Of a DNA stretch of 64,000 nt, positions 2,485 through 9,571 are shown in pieces. Source of the stretch: Nitriliruptoraceae bacterium. Its GTDB lineage: Bacteria > Actinomycetota > Nitriliruptoria > Nitriliruptorales > Nitriliruptoraceae. The notes under the pieces are model-generated. The model had not been told where the DNA came from and made no database searches. It was given only the letters and a program-made list of their open reading frames with translations. Positions within the stretch are counted from its first letter, which is position 1. Every line of letters begins with the position of its first letter. The position numbers and the translations under genes were made by a program. The stretch covers positions 17,962-81,961 of the forward strand of contig PWLR01000019.1 in the NCBI GenBank assembly GCA_003558435.1, in the 5' to 3' direction.

Positions 2485-3462
2485 TCAGGTACAGCCGTTG
2501 ATGATGGCGTGTAGGTAGGGGAGGTGGACGACGGCGCTGGTGGCGGCGATGGTTCCGAGTAGGAGCACGGAGACGCTGGCGGTCCCGGTGCTGGCCCCGG
2601 CTCGGGTCGGCGCGACGAGGTGCCTGATGCGGTCGGGCCCGGCCGCGTGGAGCACGGCCGGTGCGTTGTCGGCAGGTGACGGGCACGGTGTCGCCTCGCC
2701 GAGCTTGAGTAGGGCGCCGGCGAGGGCGGTGGTGCCGGTCCGCCTCCGTGCAGCATCGTCTGCCGCGATCTCGAGGTAGTGGGGAACGGCGTCGGCCGCG
2801 GCCGTGACGACGGGGGCCCACCGCAGTGGTACGGCGAGCGCGTCGAGGACGGTTCGGATGCTGTGGTGACGCTGGGTGAGGTGTGCCTGCTCGTGGGCGA
2901 GCACCGCTGCGAGCTCTCGTGGGGTGAGCACGGCGAGGGCGCCGTCGGAGACGACGGTCCCGGTGTGGCGCGGGTAGGCGATGGCGAAGGGGCGCGGATC
3001 GGGGACCCGCCAGACGGCATGCCCGTGGATGCGCTCGCGCGACGCGCCGACGAGCATCGCTCGCGCTGAAGCGCGCGTGGCGGCTCGTTGCTGCCGGGCG
3101 GCGCGGATGGCGCTGATCGCGATGCCGGCCGCGGTGAGCGCCGGCATCGCGAGCAGGGCCGGGGCAGGGATCGGGGTGTGCAGGAGCGGGCCGGCGAACG
3201 GGTTGGTGAGATCGAGACATCGTTGGCACAGTTCGGCAGCCGCACCACCCAGGATGGTCGGGCCGGAGAGCATCCAGGCGAGCAGCGGGCCGATCGCCAG
3301 CACGGCGAGGACCCATGCCGCGATGCTGCCGGCCCACAGCGCGGTGGCCAGGCGCGGGGCGCGAGCGAGAGCTGGCGATGCGTGGCGCAGCAACCACGGC
3401 GTGACGGTCGCGCCAGCGACCACGGTCAGCGTCAGCAGCGCCGGGACTCCGAAGACGGTCAC
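2485..3462 (-). CDS. M56-family (BlaR1-type) membrane metallopeptidase
   Basis: This 325-residue polytopic membrane protein has N-terminal hydrophobic helices (about 5-25, 41-65, 100-120). A cytosolic zinc-protease segment follows with HEQAH at 190-194 and a downstream EIAADDAA (231-238) for the third ligand, then a last hydrophobic helix near the C-terminus. M56 peptidases of the BlaR1/MecR1 type sense an envelope signal and cause loss of a partner BlaI-type repressor. There is no C-terminal penicillin-binding sensor domain, so the signal need not be a beta-lactam. It overlaps the blaI-like gene by 4 bp, which supports paired function. Confidence 0.85.
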   Translation of the reverse strand: MTVFGVPALLTLTVVAGATVTPWLLRHASPALARAPRLATALWAGSIAAWVLAVLAIGPLLAWMLSGPTILGGAAAELCQRCLDLTNPFAGPLLHTPIPAPALLAMPALTAAGIAISAIRAARQQRAATRASARAMLVGASRERIHGHAVWRVPDPRPFAIAYPRHTGTVVSDGALAVLTPRELAAVLAHEQAHLTQRHHSIRTVLDALAVPLRWAPVVTAAADAVPHYLEIAADDAARRRTGTTALAGALLKLGEATPCPSPADNAPAVLHAAGPDRIRHLVAPTRAGASTGTASVSVLLLGTIAATSAVVHLPYLHAIINGCT

Positions 3463-3845
3463 GTGCCCTCACGCCCGTTGCGAGCGAGGTAGTCGCGGAG
3501 CAGCGCGAGATCGTCGGGCGCCATGCCCGCCGCGAAGTGCAGGATCGACGCACGACGATCGCTGCTGGTCGCCAAAGCGTGCTCCATCAGCATGGCCGCG
3601 TGCTCGTCGCGCGATCGTCGCGGACGGTGTCGAGCGGCGTTGCGCTCGCGGAAGGGCACGACCATGCCCTTGCGCTCGAGGTTGCGCAGCACCGTGGAGA
3701 TCGTGGTGTACGCCGGATCGTGCGGGAGACGGTCGATCACCTCGCGGACCGTTGAGGCGCCGTGGTCCCACAGCACGTCCATGACCTGCTGCTCGAGCGC
3801 ACCCAGGCGGGGGGCGCTGGCGTCTGGTTGGGGGTCCTCACTCAC
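3459..3845 (-). CDS. BlaI/MecI/CopY-family transcriptional repressor
   Basis: A 128-residue winged-helix repressor: LGALEQQVMDVLWDHGASTVREV starts the DNA-binding domain and YTTISTVLRNLERKGMV is the recognition region, followed by a C-terminal dimerisation and cleavage segment. Family members bind dyads as dimers and are released when the partner M56 protease cuts them. The gene overlaps both neighbours by 4 bp (an upstream membrane protein and the downstream peptidase), so the three are co-translated. The likely operator is the large dyad centred at 4482, which would give autoregulation and control of the divergent dsbA-like operon. Confidence 0.9.
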   Translation of the reverse strand: MSEDPQPDASAPRLGALEQQVMDVLWDHGASTVREVIDRLPHDPAYTTISTVLRNLERKGMVVPFRERNAARHRPRRSRDEHAAMLMEHALATSSDRRASILHFAAGMAPDDLALLRDYLARNGREGT

Positions 3846-4462
3846 GGTTCGACTCCTGGGGCTGCCGGGACGGCGCAGCTCACTTCGCCCTCCAGCCTAC
3901 GGACCAACGCCCATCCCGACAGCCCGATGGCCGCCCCGGCGAGGTAGGGCTGGGCCGGAGCGAACCATGTGATCGCACCGCTGTAACCGAAGGCCAGGAG
4001 CGCGAGCTTGTTGCACACCGGGCAACCGACCGCGAACCACGCCAACACCGCCCCGACGCTTCCCAGCCGACGATCCCGCCCATCACCTTCGGGGATGCGG
4101 TCGTCGGCCTCACCCTCGGTGCCGGTCGGAGACGACGCGGCCCGGCCGGGGCGCACGTAGGTCGCGACGAGCAGGCCGGTCAGCACCGAAGCCACGAGCC
4201 AGACCGGGTAGTTCCACGGCTCGGTCGGGATCTCGCGCCCGAAGACCGGGTTGGGGATCAGGACCGTTGGCACCCCGATCAGGACGGCAACGGCGAGGGC
4301 CGCGATGGCCGCCACCACCCAGCGGTACCCCGCCCAGGTCCGCAACGCCATCGCGGCCGTGCGCAGCGTCGAGGGCCGACCGGGACGGGGTTCGATGACG
4401 GGGGGCACAGGGGACCTTTCGGGGCACGTCGCCTCGTCGGGCGTGGCTCGCGGATTCGTCAT
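3842..4462 (-). CDS. Membrane protein with a CPVC motif, first gene of the blaI operon
   Basis: A 206-residue protein I cannot assign to a named family. It has a proline-rich N-terminus (1-30) and four hydrophobic segments (about 46-68, 86-103, 134-160, 165-187). GCPVCNK at 146-152 gives a Cys147-x-x-Cys150 pair at the end of the third segment, and further Cys residues lie at 13 and 196. A CxxC pair in a membrane helix facing genes for DsbA-like and CcdA-like proteins suggests a role in thiol-disulfide electron transfer; this is inference from context. It overlaps blaI by 4 bp. The ATG sits a few bases from the operator dyad, so the leftward transcript probably has a very short leader. Confidence 0.7.
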   Translation of the reverse strand: MTNPRATPDEATCPERSPVPPVIEPRPGRPSTLRTAAMALRTWAGYRWVVAAIAALAVAVLIGVPTVLIPNPVFGREIPTEPWNYPVWLVASVLTGLLVATYVRPGRAASSPTGTEGEADDRIPEGDGRDRRLGSVGAVLAWFAVGCPVCNKLALLAFGYSGAITWFAPAQPYLAGAAIGLSGWALVRRLEGEVSCAVPAAPGVEP

Positions 4463-4464
4463 CG

Positions 4465-4499
4465 ACTATCCGTCATAGTAGATTACTACGTCGGATAGT
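4465..4499. promoter_or_regulatory. Large dyad operator between the two divergent operons
   Basis: Two nested inverted repeats share one centre at 4482. The outer arms ACTATCCG (4465-4472) and CGGATAGT (4492-4499) flank inner arms TAGTA (4476-4480) and TACTA (4484-4488). The site ends 3 bases inside neither gene and lies 3-57 bases from both start codons. BlaI-family repressors bind dyads built from TAC/GTA-type half sites, so this is the probable BlaI operator for both operons. The local AT content is much higher than the surroundings, and TACTAT on the minus strand could serve as a -10 element. Confidence 0.7.
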
Positions 4500-4514
4500 A
4501 GCCTGTCGGTCGAC

Positions 4515-4533
4515 GTCGGCGGTCGACGCCGAC
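4515..4533 (+). repeat. Inverted repeat in the dsbA-like leader
   Basis: GTCGGCG (4515-4521) and CGCCGAC (4527-4533) are separated by five bases, between the dyad operator and the dsbA-like start. It could be a second operator half or a leader hairpin. There is no T-tract, so it is unlikely to be a terminator. Confidence 0.4.
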
Positions 4534-4556
4534 ACGACGGTACGAGGAGACGCGAT

Positions 4557-5294
4557 ATGCCTGCAGTGGAGAAACGGTCCGGGAAGCGCACGTGGGTGGC
4601 GCCTACGGTGGTGGCGGCCGTGTGTGCGGCGTTGCTGGCCTTCGCACTCACCGGAGGCGACCGATCCGAGCAGGCCGACGAGGGAGCGGCCGCCCCCTCG
4701 GAGCCCGGAGCGTATGGGGAGCAGCCCGCAGGCGAGGAGTCCCCTGCGCTGGCGCTGGAGCGGCGCGACCCGGACGATCCGCTCACCGATGGTCCGGTTG
4801 ATGCGCCCATCACGATGGTGGTGTACTCCGACTACCAGTGCCCGTTCTGTGCCGGCTGGTCCCACGAGACCCTGCCCACGATGCGGGAGTACGCGGCGGC
4901 TGGCGAGCTGCGCATCGAGTGGCGCGACATCAACATCCTGAGCGAGGTCTCGGAGCGTGCGTCGATCGCGTCCTACGCGGCCGGGTTGCAAGGTCGCTTC
5001 TGGGAGTACCACGAGGCCTTGTTCCCGGAAGGTGAGATCCGATCTGCGTCGGAGCTGACCGATCAGGGGCTGGTCGAGCTGGCCGTCGAAGTCGGCTTGG
5101 ACGAGGACCGGTTCGTCGAGGACATGACGGCGGCCGACACCGTGGACGCGATCGACCGCAACGCCCAGGAGGGACTGGCGGCCGGGGTCTCCTCGACGCC
5201 CGCGTTCGTCCTCGACGGCCAGCCGATGCTCGGCGCCCAACCGACCCCGGTGTTCGTCGAGATGATCGAGCAAGCACTCACGGACGGTGCCTGA
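4557..5294 (+). CDS. Membrane-anchored DsbA-like thiol-disulfide oxidoreductase
   Basis: A 245-residue extracytoplasmic thioredoxin-fold protein. It has an N-terminal signal anchor (about 12-31), a Gly/Glu/Pro linker, and the DsbA core with SDYQCPFC, i.e. the redox pair Cys95-Cys98. Thr214-Pro215 is the cis-proline loop (VSSTPAF) and a C-terminal helix closes the domain. It resembles the DsbG/BdbD-like thioredoxin_4 group common in Actinobacteria, which oxidise or isomerise exported proteins. GAGGAG lies 6 bases before the ATG. The ccdA-like gene begins directly at its stop codon, so the pair is translationally coupled and CcdA is the expected electron partner. Confidence 0.88.
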   Translation: MPAVEKRSGKRTWVAPTVVAAVCAALLAFALTGGDRSEQADEGAAAPSEPGAYGEQPAGEESPALALERRDPDDPLTDGPVDAPITMVVYSDYQCPFCAGWSHETLPTMREYAAAGELRIEWRDINILSEVSERASIASYAAGLQGRFWEYHEALFPEGEIRSASELTDQGLVELAVEVGLDEDRFVEDMTAADTVDAIDRNAQEGLAAGVSSTPAFVLDGQPMLGAQPTPVFVEMIEQALTDGA

Positions 5295-6173
5295 GTGGAG
5301 GTCGGACTGGTCACCGCCTTCCTGGGCGGGACGCTGGCCTTGCTCAGTCCCTGCGGTGCCCTGCTGCTGCCGGCGTTCTTCGCCTCGACCATCGGCGCCA
5401 CCTCCCGGCTGGCCGGTCATGCGACGGTCTTCTACGCCGGCCTCGTGCTTGCGCTCGCACCGCTCGGTCTGGCCGCTGGAACCCTCGGGTCGATCTTCGC
5501 CACGCACCGAAGCGCCGTGGTCACGGTCACCGCGGTCCTGCTGATCGGTCTCGGCATGCTGCAGGCGCTCGGCGGTGGCTTCGACATGGCTCGCCTGCTG
5601 CCGACGGCAGGCCGGCTGCCCGAGCACGCGGCGAAACGACATGGTGTCGCCCGGACGTTCGCCCTCGGTGCCGCCAGCGGGCTGGTGGGGGTGTGCACCG
5701 GGCCGATCCTCGGGGCCGTGCTCACCCTCGCGGCGGCGCAGGGCGACGTCACCGCAGCCCTGACCCTGCTGGCCGTCTACGGGGCCGGGATGGTCATCCC
5801 GCTCGTGGTGCTGGCCGCCTTCTGGGAACGGATCGGTCCACGCGGGCACCGGCTGCTTCGCGGCCGCAGCCTGCGGTTCGCACGGCGTGACTGGCACACG
5901 ACCTCGCTCGTCGCGGGGGTGTTGCTCATCACGGTCGGGGTGGTGTTCTGGGTGACCAACGGGCTCGTCGGGGTTCCCGAACTCATCCCGGTCCACGTGC
6001 AGCTGCGGCTGCAGGGGCTCGCCGGTGCTGCGGGCACGAGGTTCGACGTCATCGCCATCGTGGCGATCGCGGTTGTCGCCTCGAGCGTGTGGGCCCTGCG
6101 ACGGCGACGACCCGGTCCGCAACCTGACGCCGTCAGCGGGTCCGAACGACGATCATCCGAAGAACGCGCGTGA
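5295..6173 (+). CDS. CcdA-like thiol-disulfide electron transporter (DsbD-beta domain)
   Basis: A 292-residue membrane protein with at least six hydrophobic segments. The hallmark intramembrane cysteines are in LSPCGALLLP (Cys20) and GVCTGP (Cys134), with conserved prolines nearby, as in CcdA/DsbD transmembrane domains that move reducing equivalents across the membrane. The GTG start follows the preceding stop codon without a gap. The 3' end overlaps the lipoprotein gene by 4 bp. There is no cytochrome c maturation gene nearby, so its likely client is the adjacent DsbA-like protein. Confidence 0.88.
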   Translation: MEVGLVTAFLGGTLALLSPCGALLLPAFFASTIGATSRLAGHATVFYAGLVLALAPLGLAAGTLGSIFATHRSAVVTVTAVLLIGLGMLQALGGGFDMARLLPTAGRLPEHAAKRHGVARTFALGAASGLVGVCTGPILGAVLTLAAAQGDVTAALTLLAVYGAGMVIPLVVLAAFWERIGPRGHRLLRGRSLRFARRDWHTTSLVAGVLLITVGVVFWVTNGLVGVPELIPVHVQLRLQGLAGAAGTRFDVIAIVAIAVVASSVWALRRRRPGPQPDAVSGSERRSSEERA

Positions 6174-7381
6174 GCCGGCCCTCCCCGCAAGGAGCTGCGG
6201 CCGGCACGGTGGCGGTGCTGTTGAGCGCCTGCACCCTGCTGCCCGGTAGCGGGTACCCGACCGGCATCGATCCAGAGATCCGCACGGACGGGACGCCCGC
6301 GCCGGCGATCGTGCTCGACTCCGTCGAGCTACCCGAACCACTCGTCGACCGCGAACTGGTCGACCTCGGGTGGGACGCCGTTCCCGAGGAGTCCGCCGGG
6401 GTTTTCCTCGGTCTTGGCCAGATCACCGACGACGCCCTACGACTCTCCGCGGTCACCGAAGAGGGCATGGTCCTGTGGACCACCGAGCGTCCATTGTCGT
6501 GCGCCGGGTTCGCGCTCACCGCGGACAGCGATCGGCTCCTCGCGGTGCTCACCGACGTCTCACCCGGCAGGGCCTCGGTCGCCGTGACCACCGCCAGTGC
6601 CTACGACCTTCACACCGGCGAACAGATCTGGGGCCCGGTCGAGGTGCCAGGCCCGCACGCCGGCCCCGGACTCGTGTTCGCCACGCTCCCGACCGGAGGT
6701 GCGATGGGCAGCAGCGGGCCACGCGTCGCACTCGACCCGGCGACCGGGACCGTGTCCGCAACCGAGGACGAGCTCGACGGTGCTCGACTGGTGGGCGAGT
6801 ACCACGGCACCCTGCTGATCGTCGATCACGAGCACCTGCTCGCCCACGACACCAACGACGGCCGCGAACGGTGGCGCCTGCCGCTCGCCGACCTCGACCT
6901 CCACGACGCAGCCCAGGTGGCCGCAGCACCGGACAGCACCCCCGGCCCCGGGCTCGCGTTCGTCGGCGACCGCGACACCGGCTACGCGCTGGTCGACCTC
7001 ATCGCGGGGAGCATCGTCACAACCGCCGCACTGGGCGCCGCCACCGACCCCAGCACGAACGTGCACGTCACCATCGATCATGACCAGCTGTACGGCCACG
7101 ACATGGACGGCGACCCGATCTGGGACCACGCGATCGAGCCCGGGACCCGGATCGCCAGCGCCGGCAACGGTGTCCTCTACCTCCTGACCGCCGGCAACAT
7201 CCACACCCGCGACACCGAAACCGGCCAACCCCTCGGGGTCTACGAAGACCCCCGCACCACCAACGCAGCCCTGCCCCGACACATCGACGACGCAGGCGCC
7301 GCCGTCCTCGAAACCTCCCAAGGCTTCCTGCTCGCCACCATCAACCCGGTCGGAACCACCGCCGCACCGACGGGACCGTGA
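6170..7381 (+). CDS. PQQ-like beta-propeller lipoprotein
   Basis: A 403-residue exported lipoprotein: the short N-terminus ends in VLLSAC (lipobox Cys21). The mature part has recurring propeller-blade motifs of the PQQ-binding-like/WD40-type kind, such as YDLHTGEQIWGP, LAHDTNDGRERWRLPL and HTRDTETGQPLGVY. Such propellers are usually binding scaffolds rather than enzymes (compare BamB), and none of the calcium or PQQ ligands of true quinoprotein dehydrogenases can be confirmed. The gene overlaps both ccdA-like and lnt-like genes by 4 bp, so it is a fixed part of the module and a natural substrate for the next gene's product. Confidence 0.8.
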   Translation: MSRPSPQGAAAGTVAVLLSACTLLPGSGYPTGIDPEIRTDGTPAPAIVLDSVELPEPLVDRELVDLGWDAVPEESAGVFLGLGQITDDALRLSAVTEEGMVLWTTERPLSCAGFALTADSDRLLAVLTDVSPGRASVAVTTASAYDLHTGEQIWGPVEVPGPHAGPGLVFATLPTGGAMGSSGPRVALDPATGTVSATEDELDGARLVGEYHGTLLIVDHEHLLAHDTNDGRERWRLPLADLDLHDAAQVAAAPDSTPGPGLAFVGDRDTGYALVDLIAGSIVTTAALGAATDPSTNVHVTIDHDQLYGHDMDGDPIWDHAIEPGTRIASAGNGVLYLLTAGNIHTRDTETGQPLGVYEDPRTTNAALPRHIDDAGAAVLETSQGFLLATINPVGTTAAPTGP

Positions 7382-8940
7382 TCGGCGTCGTCACGCGAGA
7401 CGCACCGGCTGGCGCGATGCGCGCGCCCGCCGCGCCACTGGGTCCGACGGCGATGATCATCCGGCTGATCGCGGCGGGAGCTGGTGGCGCTCTGACCGGC
7501 ACTGCGGTGCTCACCGGCTGGTGGGCGGTCGCGGTCATCGGCACCGGGGTGGTCGCCAGCGCGGTGCACGACATCCGCCCGGCACGTCGTGCCATGGTCG
7601 GGACCGCAGCCGGCTGCGTGCACGCGACCGTCACCACCCTGTGGGCCTCGCAGTTCAACGCCTCCGCAGCCGCTGCGCTGATCCTCATCCAGGCTGCCGG
7701 ATGGGGACTGGCCGCGCTGGCCGTCTCCATGCGCGCACGCTGGCCGTGGCCGCTCGCCCCGGCGCTAGCGATCTCCGAATGGGCACGCACCCACTGGCCG
7801 CTTGGGGGCTATCCCCTCGCCCAGCTGTGGCTCACCCAAGCCGACGGACCGCTCGCCGCGCTCGCACCACTGCTCGGCCCCTTCGCGATCACCGCTGCGA
7901 TCGTGCTCCTTGCCACCGCCGGCATCGCCGCACTGCAGCGACGACCCGCAGCGATCCGCGTCCTCGCCGCATCGCTGATCACGGTCGGTGCCGCTCAGCT
8001 GGCGCCGATCCCATCACCGGTCGCGCCGATGGAGGTCGCTGCGGTCCAAGGCGGCGACCGGCGCGGCGTCCCGGCCATGCGCAACGACCCCGGCCCTCTG
8101 CTTGAACGTCAGATCGATCTCACCCGGTCGCTCGACACCGACGTCGACCTCGTCGTGTGGCCCGAGAGCGCGCTCGCCGTACACGGCGCGATGACGACCG
8201 GTGACCGCCGACTTCTCCAGGAGCTCGCTGATGGGTTCGACGGCGTGCTGATCGCCGGAGTCGTCGAGCGCTTCGACCTCCCCGACGGCGCAGGCTGGTT
8301 CCGCAACGCCGCGGTTGCGAGCGACGAGACCGGCACGCTCGACCGGTACGACAAGCAGCTCCCCGTACCGTTCGGCGAACGCGTTCCAGCACGACGGTTC
8401 GTCGAACTGGTCGTCGACCTCTCGCTCGTCCCGCGCGACATGGTCGCCGGTAGCGGCCCGCCGATCCTACGTACGGAACACGCTGACGTCGGTATCGCCA
8501 TCTCCTACGAGAACCTCTTCCCCCGTGTCGCGCGGCAAGCCGTGCTCCAAGGCGCTGACATCCTCGCCGTTCCCACCCTCGCATCCTCCTACGTCACCGA
8601 TGAGATCCCCACCCAACAGCTCGCCGCCGCACGGATGCGTGCCCGCGAAACCGGCCGGGACCTCGCCATCGTCGGATCGACCGGTCCCACGGCCCTCATC
8701 CGCGCAGATGGCACGCTCGCTGCCCAAGCACCAACCGACACACCCCACGTCGCCCAGGCAAGGCTCCAGACACGGTCGGGCACCACCCTGTACACGCGTT
8801 ACGGCGACGCCCTACCACTGGCTGCAGCCGCGCTCGTGCTGTCCATGACCGCCCGGAGACCGGCTCCGCGCCCGCTCCATGCGGGCCTACCCGCCGAACC
8901 CGAGCATCTGGCAGCTCGACGCCAAGAACGACGACCGTGA
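7378..8940 (+). CDS. Apolipoprotein N-acyltransferase-like protein with Ser in place of the catalytic Cys
   Basis: A 520-residue protein with N-terminal membrane helices (about 26-205) and a C-terminal nitrilase-type domain, as in Lnt. Lnt transfers a third acyl chain to the lipoprotein N-terminal Cys. The acid is in WPESAL (Glu263), the lysine in YDKQLPVPFGE (Lys326), and Glu334 is also conserved. At the nucleophile position the usual ICYE motif reads ISYEN, giving Ser376 (codon TCC at 8503-8505). A last hydrophobic segment lies near 479-490. The Ser may abolish or alter acyl transfer, or mark a lineage variant. The GTG start overlaps the lipoprotein stop. The final 30 residues run into recombinase remnant DNA and may not be original. 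Confidence 0.75.
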   Translation: MIGVVTRDAPAGAMRAPAAPLGPTAMIIRLIAAGAGGALTGTAVLTGWWAVAVIGTGVVASAVHDIRPARRAMVGTAAGCVHATVTTLWASQFNASAAAALILIQAAGWGLAALAVSMRARWPWPLAPALAISEWARTHWPLGGYPLAQLWLTQADGPLAALAPLLGPFAITAAIVLLATAGIAALQRRPAAIRVLAASLITVGAAQLAPIPSPVAPMEVAAVQGGDRRGVPAMRNDPGPLLERQIDLTRSLDTDVDLVVWPESALAVHGAMTTGDRRLLQELADGFDGVLIAGVVERFDLPDGAGWFRNAAVASDETGTLDRYDKQLPVPFGERVPARRFVELVVDLSLVPRDMVAGSGPPILRTEHADVGIAISYENLFPRVARQAVLQGADILAVPTLASSYVTDEIPTQQLAAARMRARETGRDLAIVGSTGPTALIRADGTLAAQAPTDTPHVAQARLQTRSGTTLYTRYGDALPLAAAALVLSMTARRPAPRPLHAGLPAEPEHLAARRQERRP

Positions 8941-9331
8941 AGGCACCATCGCGCTCGAGACCCGCACCATCACCGTGTTGCACGATCACCGCGAGCGGCA
9001 ACTCGACGTGCGGCGCGCCGCCGGCCCCGTCTGGTCGACACAGCCACAGGATCACGACCTGGTGTTCACCCGCCCCGACGGCGGCGCCATCCCGCCCAAG
9101 CGCGCCTCACGGATGTTCACCCGCCACGTCGACGCCGCCGGCCTACCCCGCTCCGGCGTCCACGGCCTCCGTCACAGCTGGGCCACACTGGCGCGCCGGT
9201 GTCCCCATCAAGGTCGTTTCCGAGCGCATGGTCGCGCCGACCCCGCCGTGACCATGCAGGTGTACGCCCACGCCCTCGAAGGCGACGACGCCACCGCCGC
9301 CGAGACCACAACCATCTTCGACGACCGATGA
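8915..9331 (+). pseudogene. Frameshifted C-terminal remnant of a tyrosine recombinase/integrase
   Basis: In frame 2 the translation matches the catalytic half of phage-type integrases: REGTIALETRTITVLHDHRERQL, DHDLVFTRPDGG, RMFTRHVDAAGLPRSGVHGLRHSWATLA. Reading then shifts to frame 3 for GVPIKVVSERM (9191-9229) and back to frame 2 for ADPAVTMQVYAHALEG, which carries the nucleophile Tyr. Two compensating small deletions, a missing N-terminal domain and an Arg where the conserved His of GHA should be make it inactive. It lies between the lnt-like gene and tRNA-Leu, as expected for the integrase of an element that entered at the tRNA 3' end. Confidence 0.75.
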
Positions 9332-9438: not shown

Positions 9439-9487
9439 CTGCTGCGATTCTGCCGGATCCGGGCCGGTAGACCAGCCGACGCGATCG

Positions 9488-9571
9488 TGGGCGGAGGGGG
9501 ACTTGAACCCCCATGTCCATAAGGACACACGGACCTGAACCGTGCGCGTCTGCCAATTCCGCCACCCGCCC
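9488..9571 (-). tRNA. leuT: tRNA-Leu (anticodon CAG)
   Basis: Leftward 84-nt gene with a seven-pair acceptor stem (GGGCGGG with TCCGCCC, last pair G-U), GGTGGCGGAATTGGCAGAC D-arm typical of tRNA-Leu, anticodon CAG in GGTTCAGGTCC, and a long variable arm. The T-arm is GGGGGTTCAAGTCCCCC. CCA is not encoded. Its place beside fhaA matches mycobacterial leuT. Its 3' end faces the left accessory arm and the integrase remnant. Confidence 0.95.

Follow-up and report, generated by a model that had tools for sequence, protein, structure and literature searches.

What signal is read by a BlaI repressor and its membrane protease when neither a penicillin sensor nor a β-lactamase accompanies them? The question is raised by a locus near the start of a 64,000-nucleotide stretch of Nitriliruptoraceae bacterium DNA (GCA_003558435.1, contig PWLR01000019.1, positions 17,962–81,961; hereafter the window), taken from an assembly of 4.45 Mb in 286 contigs. 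The list of open reading frames (ORFs) of the window revealed seven genes arranged as two divergent operons. The leftward operon encodes, in order, a membrane protein with a CPVC (CxxC) motif (the CPVC protein), BlaI, and an M56-type protease, and the rightward operon a DsbA-like protein, CcdA, a β-propeller lipoprotein, and an Lnt-like protein. Adjacent genes overlap by 4 bases at the M56/BlaI, BlaI/CPVC, CcdA/propeller, and propeller/Lnt junctions, and the DsbA-like and CcdA genes abut, as expected from a preliminary description of this DNA, made from its letters alone, which had put all internal junctions at 0–4 bp. Models for BlaI, DsbA-like, CcdA, propeller, and Lnt proteins matched where that description had placed these families, and a Pfam search likewise found no β-lactamase among the module genes. 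The reading developed here, which we hold with about even confidence, is that the BlaI/M56 pair controls an envelope-reducing operon by sensing thiol state through a CxxC in a loop of the M56 protein.

The assignment of the protease to the M56 family stands in part. The M56 model PF05569 scored 20.1 bits, below its cut-off of 31, and the M48 model PF01435 scored better at 35.2 bits, but the HExxH...E zinc site, located between transmembrane (TM) segments 3 and 4, and the four-segment layout fit the BlaR1 type. Of the regions around the four hydrophobic segments, the loop between segments 2 and 3 (residues 66–100) contains a single Lys/Arg and the C terminus (residues 313–325) contains none, so that both are predicted to lie outside, with the protease part (residues 120–293, 21 Lys/Arg) predicted inside. 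No Pfam match to a penicillin-binding sensor domain was found and the protein stops 13 residues past its last hydrophobic segment, which bears out the earlier remark that no penicillin sensor is present. The outward-facing loop carries a CxxC formed by Cys79 and Cys82, a point that is new relative to the preliminary description.

Alignment of 53 M56 rows from the module and its relatives (52 distinct) revealed Cys79 in all 53 and Cys82 in 52, the exception being a plasmid locus with a different gene order (L115). HExxH is found in 52 of the 53 rows and Cys324, near the C terminus, in 48, with three gaps and two other residues making up the remainder. As controls, 30 loci of the best M56-family matches in 119 genomes were combined with 20 weaker M56/M48 matches; these were parsed automatically, with frames picked by length and HExxH, and a few may be wrong. 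A CxxC within the 190 residues preceding HExxH was observed in one of the 50 controls, which is itself a copy of the module (L191), and in none of the other 49. The second M56 protein of the window's genome, one of these controls and part of another BlaI/M56 pair (L133, G000:C182), has no CxxC and a longer C-terminal part.

Related evidence comes from the repressor, which is similar in sequence to PDB entry 2g9w (E = 1.4e-15), which we take to be mycobacterial Rv1846c. At nine BlaI loci no M56 gene was found in the 11–21 kb examined, and a profile of the module M56 proteins finds none there. The BlaI proteins of all nine carry at least two cysteines, compared with 11 of the 53 BlaI rows accompanied by M56, where the domain otherwise has one cysteine (eight rows) or none (34 rows). 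The pair takes the form C-x4-C near the N terminus in 6/6 Cellulomonadaceae-type loci (L004, L009, L013, L022, L056, and L068) and a different form in 3/3 Arthrobacter-type loci (L041, L044, and L113). With M56 present, C-x4-C is found only in L006 and L020, which belong to one cluster, and the Arthrobacter pair in none. The BlaI proteins of the M56-less loci are thus candidates for direct thiol sensing and, as they carry their own cysteines in loci that lack the outer CxxC protease, the signal appears to act on thiols. Taken together, the loop CxxC and the cysteine-bearing BlaI suggest, at the level of sequence, that the thiol-type signal named among the options in the preliminary description was well chosen. 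Other cysteine pairs were also noted in M56-accompanied BlaI proteins of L052, L062, L076, and L021, and of L047, L070, and L082 (Leucobacter and Dietzia types).

The region between the operons contains two palindromes in tandem, 20 bp centre to centre. A single shared dyad of 35 bp had been described here; the operator common to both operons was retained, but the dyad resolves into these two palindromes. With up to three mismatches the pattern matches the window twice against 0.26 expected, a number reached in 4/100 shuffles, and its strict form, ACTAY-N5-RTAGT, occurs at three places in the assembly, two of which are the intergenic pair (12 for a reversed control pattern). The third strict site sits at the end of an AT-rich contig (L126, G000:C24) in a GC-rich assembly, and this contig is possibly contamination. 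A scan of positions 4400–4600 for promoters gave no match.

The operator was then counted in all 116 loci with a CPVC match, a set in which near-copies, short loci, and the locus of the window itself are included. A palindrome with at most two mismatches precedes the CPVC gene in 61 of the 63 loci with BlaI, compared with 2/53 without BlaI. The two BlaI loci that lack it there are L051, in which it is found upstream of DsbA, and L115. The 1.56 Mb scanned contain 136 strict sites, 105 of them upstream of a CPVC gene. Among the 31 located elsewhere, 15 precede relocated DsbA genes, one is upstream of a relocated propeller gene, one lies between propeller and BlaI genes, two on a Rhodococcus plasmid precede Lnt and a thioredoxin-like gene, and two adjoin a CsoR-family (CstR-like) gene in L065. 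The remaining ten belong to five copies of one island, where they separate a leftward set that includes a CsoR-family gene from a rightward unnamed gene. This pattern is what a BlaI regulon would be expected to look like. Because the operator is conserved together with BlaI and moves with the operon genes, a single switch acting on both operons through the two shared tandem motifs is likely as judged from the site distribution, consistent with the joint control proposed earlier.

Relatives of the CPVC protein in a scan of species genomes (best 80 of 177 loci) were joined into 64 clusters of near-copies, 42 with BlaI and 22 without BlaI in the DNA examined. Within the 42 BlaI clusters, all actinobacterial, a DsbA homologue is present in 41, CcdA in 39, M56 in 34, propeller in 24, and Lnt in four. 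Gene order, taken for each cluster from its longest locus with BlaI (some of these loci are cut by contig ends), places BlaI next after the CPVC gene in 41/42 clusters and DsbA divergently in 37/42. CPVC and BlaI genes oppose a DsbA-CcdA pair in 31/42, the complete core with M56 is found in 24/42, and the core with propeller in 15; Lnt directly after propeller, as in the window, is confined to Brevibacterium casei (L065, 1/42). The gene set, whose recurrence in other genomes had been proposed as a check, thus does recur, but it is not the fixed unit that was described: parts drop out and move, M56 among them, and the lipoprotein and Lnt genes are not constant members.

The nearest CPVC locus in named genomes, among those best 80 loci, is that of Nitriliruptoraceae assembly L003 (79% identical); in G108, the only genome of the same genus searched (93% complete), neither the CPVC nor the Lnt-like gene was found at the limits used. 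Some CPVC, propeller, and Lnt matches of the protein searches come from contigs of equal length (e.g. 392,817 bases for P0011, P0125, and P0186) and so probably share a contig. A near-identical island in Cellulosimicrobium, Microlunatus, Haematomicrobium, and Microbacterium (L033–L036 and L114), once on a plasmid, holds the module together with genes for persulfide dioxygenase (PDO), rhodanese, TauE, thioredoxin, and Lnt, and its presence across genera and on a plasmid indicates that it travels. No description of a BlaI/M56-DsbA-CcdA system was found among the matches listed in the open PubMed Central literature.

The genes adjoining the module in annotated plasmid relatives encode MBL-fold/rhodanese proteins, which we read as PDO, as well as rhodanese, TauE, DsrE, DUF302, and CsoR-family proteins; two other plasmid relatives have metal genes instead of or besides these, including P-type ATPase genes. 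PDO was found near eight of the 42 BlaI clusters (0.77 Mb), TauE near six, rhodanese near six, and P-type ATPase near three, with corresponding numbers of four, four, three, and zero for the 22 clusters without BlaI (0.34 Mb). A background of 30 genomes (102 Mb by rounded sizes) contains 51 PDO, 18 TauE, and 140 ATPase places, giving expectations in 0.77 Mb of 0.38, 0.14, and 1.06 (Poisson chances 9e-9, 8e-9, and 0.09) and enrichments of ∼20-fold for PDO-type and ∼40-fold for TauE genes beside the module, to be read with the limits that all 30 genomes hold a CPVC homologue, that taxa were unmatched, and that score limits were only roughly equal. A thioredoxin gene is present in the flanks of 8/42 BlaI clusters. 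In Streptomyces coelicolor a sulfane-sulfur circuit consists of a CsoR-like regulator, PDO, rhodanese, and a sulfite transporter, according to the account in PMC7533328. The operator of that circuit, ATACC-N6-GGTAT (at most one mismatch), lies upstream of PDO in 13 of the 19 PDO places scanned, near-copies included, and L114 has two such sites in which the spacer is shorter by one base. In view of the M56 CxxC, the cysteine-bearing BlaI, and the PDO and TauE neighbours, the likeliest signal appears to be of a thiol type, possibly sulfane sulfur.

A mechanism can be proposed in which sulfane sulfur (polysulfide or persulfide), as the most likely oxidant, would convert the cysteines of M56 to a disulfide or persulfide, upon which the cytoplasmic HExxH site of the oxidised protease would cleave BlaI and release both operons. 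Electrons from thioredoxin in the cytoplasm would then reach the DsbA-like protein through CcdA, as the pairing of the two suggests, and the DsbA-like protein would in turn reduce envelope proteins that are persulfidated or wrongly oxidised. The CPVC protein may move thiol equivalents or sulfur species across the membrane, and the propeller lipoprotein and Lnt-like protein, the latter of a Ser type, would be accessory parts. The DsbA-like protein would return the system to its off state by reducing the M56 CxxC. A threat of this kind to envelope thiols is plausible, as under anaerobic conditions polysulfides are reported to have oxidised a periplasmic reporter in Escherichia coli faster than did oxidised glutathione (GSSG) or peroxide (PMC11921322). 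Cytoplasmic sulfane sulfur would presumably be handled by the CsoR-like/PDO circuit and that of the envelope by the module. A wider version, namely a transmembrane proteolytic sulfane-sulfur switch in which M56 is exchangeable for a cysteine-pair BlaI and which forms the outer arm to a CsoR-like/PDO inner arm, is more tentative and remains doubtful.

Several observations weigh against thiol sensing by the M56 loop or against sulfane sulfur as the signal, as do the limits of the background set given above. It is conceivable that the CxxC of the M56 protein forms a structural disulfide. The nine M56-less BlaI proteins group together on the BlaI tree (support 96/82), which gives no support to several independent sensor exchanges and reduces the exchange to a single event; on this unrooted tree, one exchange between M56 and a cysteine-bearing BlaI, with cysteine positions changing later, appears to account for them. 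Furthermore, the cysteines of the 11 M56-accompanied BlaI rows with two or more occupy five kinds of position. With regard to sulfur, no PDO, TauE, rhodanese, DsrE, or DUF302 gene was found in the examined flanks of 30/42 BlaI clusters, PDO lies within 10 kb in only one (G062) of an unselected 30 genomes with a CPVC homologue, and G050 gave no PDO match despite having the module. The PDO, TauE, and CsoR-type genes of the window's own genome are on other contigs, none of them in the module. The sulfur genes nearest to it are an ArsR-rhodanese fusion ∼5.7 kb left of the window start (L131 11527–12240) and a YgaP-like rhodanese beside a sulfate permease, ∼15.5 kb left of the window start (L131 1855–2466).

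These points are shared in part by a reading in which the signal is general disulfide or oxidant stress of the envelope (diamide-like oxidants, hypochlorite, or misfolded proteins) and the sulfur genes are mere co-riders on mobile islands. The cysteine evidence would suit any thiol oxidant, the 30 clusters with sulfur-free flanks are as expected, and so is one near-identical island in several genera. Co-riding accounts less readily for PDO and TauE, each near 4/22 of the clusters that have a CPVC homologue without BlaI, or for BlaI-type sites adjoining CstR-like genes in two island types, and we consider this explanation unlikely. Copper or another soft metal was also weighed, as cysteine pairs bind metal and the module might shield envelope thiols from copper, a protection that Scs proteins afford. 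The P-type ATPase genes near L041, L056, and L077, those near CPVC homologues on two plasmids, and a Ser-type Lnt gene beside BlaI and a DUF305-like gene in G247 (read by eye) are compatible with this; however, three ATPase clusters do not clearly exceed the 1.06 expected (P = 0.09), and identity of the repressor with CopY was rejected, CopY_TcrY (TIGR02698) scoring 21.3 bits against a cut-off of 121.95. A metal signal is rated as quite improbable.

If the M56 CxxC were a structural disulfide only, the CPVC protein might be the true sensor and control M56. Its gene is first in the BlaI operon, its cysteines are invariant, and it is found without BlaI beside sulfur genes, yet 22 of the 64 clusters have the protein without a BlaI match in the DNA examined, so that its role is not tied to M56 and this arrangement is very unlikely. 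A classical BlaR1-type cell-wall antibiotic signal has in its favour the two protein families themselves and a PF00144 β-lactamase-family gene near the module in Dietzia relatives; with no sensor domain past the last M56 segment and no β-lactamase gene in the window's module, it is hardly credible. The individual components of the module are listed in Table 1.

Table 1. Features of the divergent module and its right flank, in window coordinates
Feature	Position	Strand	Basis
M56-type membrane zinc protease, 325 residues, four predicted TM segments	2485..3462	-	PF01435 35.2 bits; hydropathy and Lys/Arg topology
Cys324 of M56 protein, predicted extracytoplasmic C terminus	2491..2493	-	alignment
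HEQAH zinc site of M56 protein, predicted cytoplasmic	2881..2895	-	alignment, topology
CxxC (Cys79, Cys82) of M56 protein, predicted extracytoplasmic loop, proposed thiol sensor	3217..3228	-	alignment
BlaI-type repressor, 128 residues, without cysteine	3459..3845	-	PF03965 84.2 bits (cut-off 22.6)
CPVC membrane protein, GCPVCNK motif invariant	3842..4462	-	homologue alignment; no Pfam/NCBIfam family
Operator palindrome 1, GACTA-N7-TAGTA	4464..4480	.	motif scan
Operator palindrome 2, TACTA-N7-TAGTA	4484..4500	.	motif scan
DsbA-like protein, one N-terminal TM anchor, CPFC at 4839–4850, cis-Pro	4557..5294	+	PF13462, PF01323
CcdA/DsbD_TM-type electron carrier, cysteines at 5352–5354 and 5694–5696	5295..6173	+	PF02683 49.5 bits
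β-Propeller lipoprotein, lipobox Cys at 6230–6232, Cys111 at 6500–6502	6170..7381	+	PF13360 28.5 bits (cut-off 27.6)
Lnt-like protein, Ser376 (8503–8505) replaces catalytic Cys	7378..8940	+	TIGR00546 152.4 bits (cut-off 132.9)
Tyrosine-integrase remnant, overlaps Lnt-like gene end in another frame	8879..9331	+	PF00589 20.5 bits (below cut-off 27.1)
tRNA-Leu (CAG), beside integrase remnant	9487..9571	-	tRNA prediction

The CPVC protein has at least 2,090 homologues at E ≤ 0.001, and its cysteines are retained throughout the matched segments (Cys147 in 89/89, Cys150 in 88/89, and Cys196 in 86/86). A model of the protein (pLDDT 73.8) gave no PDB fold match at E ≤ 0.001. Selenocysteine, suggested by in-frame stops in several genome matches, was rejected for this family: seven aligned loci have plain cysteines, stops occur only at the C-terminal end of two alignments (L091 and L104) or outside the aligned stretch, and Rfam at gathering scores gave no match in six of the seven stop-checked loci.

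The DsbA-like protein, which matches PDB entries 7unn and 4pwo, retains its active-site cysteines in 75/75 and its cis-Pro in 74/74 matched segments; it also scores 99.5 bits to the NCBIfam Rcas_1661 thioredoxin-like (seleno)lipoprotein family (cut-off 190). The two CcdA cysteines are found in 68/68 and 67/67 matched segments. The features of a CcdA-DsbA pathway, conserved carrier cysteines and a partner CxxC with cis-Pro, are therefore all present. The propeller lipoprotein was modelled with a pLDDT of 84.7 and has Cys111 in 24 of 32 matched segments. In a Foldseek search its fold matched tetrathionate hydrolase (E = 3.5e-11) and BamB (E = 7e-11) with TM-scores of ∼0.4, and as these scores are nearly equal no function was drawn from them.

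The Lnt-like protein passes the Lnt model and has the Glu and Lys of the catalytic triad, with Ser376 in place of Cys. Serine is found at the nucleophile position in 35/107 aligned Lnt rows (window counted twice, two rows unusable), and a Cys-type nucleophile in the island copies L114, L065, and L117 and in the other Lnt of this genome. An E. coli Lnt with a Ser nucleophile had low activity in one study and undetectable activity in work cited by another (PMC10313180, PMC3850990), and the mycobacterial Ser-type homologue BCG_2279c is described as having failed to replace Lnt activity (PMC3850990). The Ser-type protein is therefore probably not a plain Lnt. In a search of 66 genomes of the class, Ser-type Lnt was frequent (L194, L195, L197, L199, L200, L202, L204–L206, and L209). 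In G408 its gene has CcdA and rhodanese-domain genes nearby, and in G247 it adjoins another BlaI, a possible M56, and the DUF305-like gene (the latter two read by eye); no CPVC homologue was found in either stretch, and neither case bears on the reading of the module.

The module possibly marks one end of an old genomic island, given the integrase remnant and tRNA-Leu gene at its Lnt end; no second exact copy of at least 12 bases of the tRNA-Leu 3′ end was found in the window or in the preceding 17,961 bases. Among the relatives, the Dietzia loci with a PF00144 gene near the module (L019, L067, L070, and L082; e.g. L082 6493–8223) carry two DsbA-CcdA pairs, and an S-adenosylmethionine (SAM)-dependent methyltransferase family recurs near the module in 14 loci (e.g. 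L021 3112–4062).

For a BlaI/M56 pair that has no penicillin sensor, the question of the signal arises anew, and the conserved outward CxxC provides a concrete candidate sensor that can be mutated, with the cysteine-bearing BlaI of M56-less relatives as a second route to the same kind of signal. If correct, thiol sensing by the M56 loop would mean a further, proteolytic sensor of thiols or sulfane sulfur, one that faces outside the cytoplasm, the large unnamed CPVC family would gain a testable role, and Ser-type Lnt homologues would gain a genomic context.

The module can be compared with several known systems. It resembles pairs of CcdA/DsbD with a DsbA-like partner, to which Scs-type pairs belong, in having a two-cysteine membrane carrier beside an extracytoplasmic CPFC protein, and differs from them in its BlaI-type operators and CPVC partner. 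The Lnt-like protein shares with BCG_2279c the Ser for catalytic Cys and a Cys-type Lnt elsewhere in the genome, but its gene ends an operon predicted to be under BlaI control. All four gene kinds of the S. coelicolor sulfane-sulfur circuit adjoin the module in some relatives; that circuit, however, is cytoplasmic, uses another regulator, and has none of its genes in the window's module. Mycobacterial BlaI (Rv1846c) provides the closest solved structure by sequence, PDB 2g9w, but is reported to act on blaC and on cell-division or ATP-synthase genes (PMC12565901). The closest parallel in operation is staphylococcal BlaR1/BlaI and MecR1/MecI, which likewise combine a BlaI-family repressor with palindromic operators in a divergent promoter region and, in BlaR1, a membrane protease whose HExxH faces the cytoplasm and which has an extracellular loop linking helices 2 and 3; this loop, EL1, is described as protruding from these helices beside the sensor domain (PMC9834060). 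In contrast, the module has no penicillin-binding domain and no β-lactamase or PBP2a target, carries a CxxC in the loop, has thiol-redox targets, and can dispense with the M56 gene where BlaI bears cysteines instead. As it appears to work alike but lacks the defining penicillin sensor, the module is best regarded as a variant of the BlaR1/BlaI kind rather than a member of the β-lactam systems.

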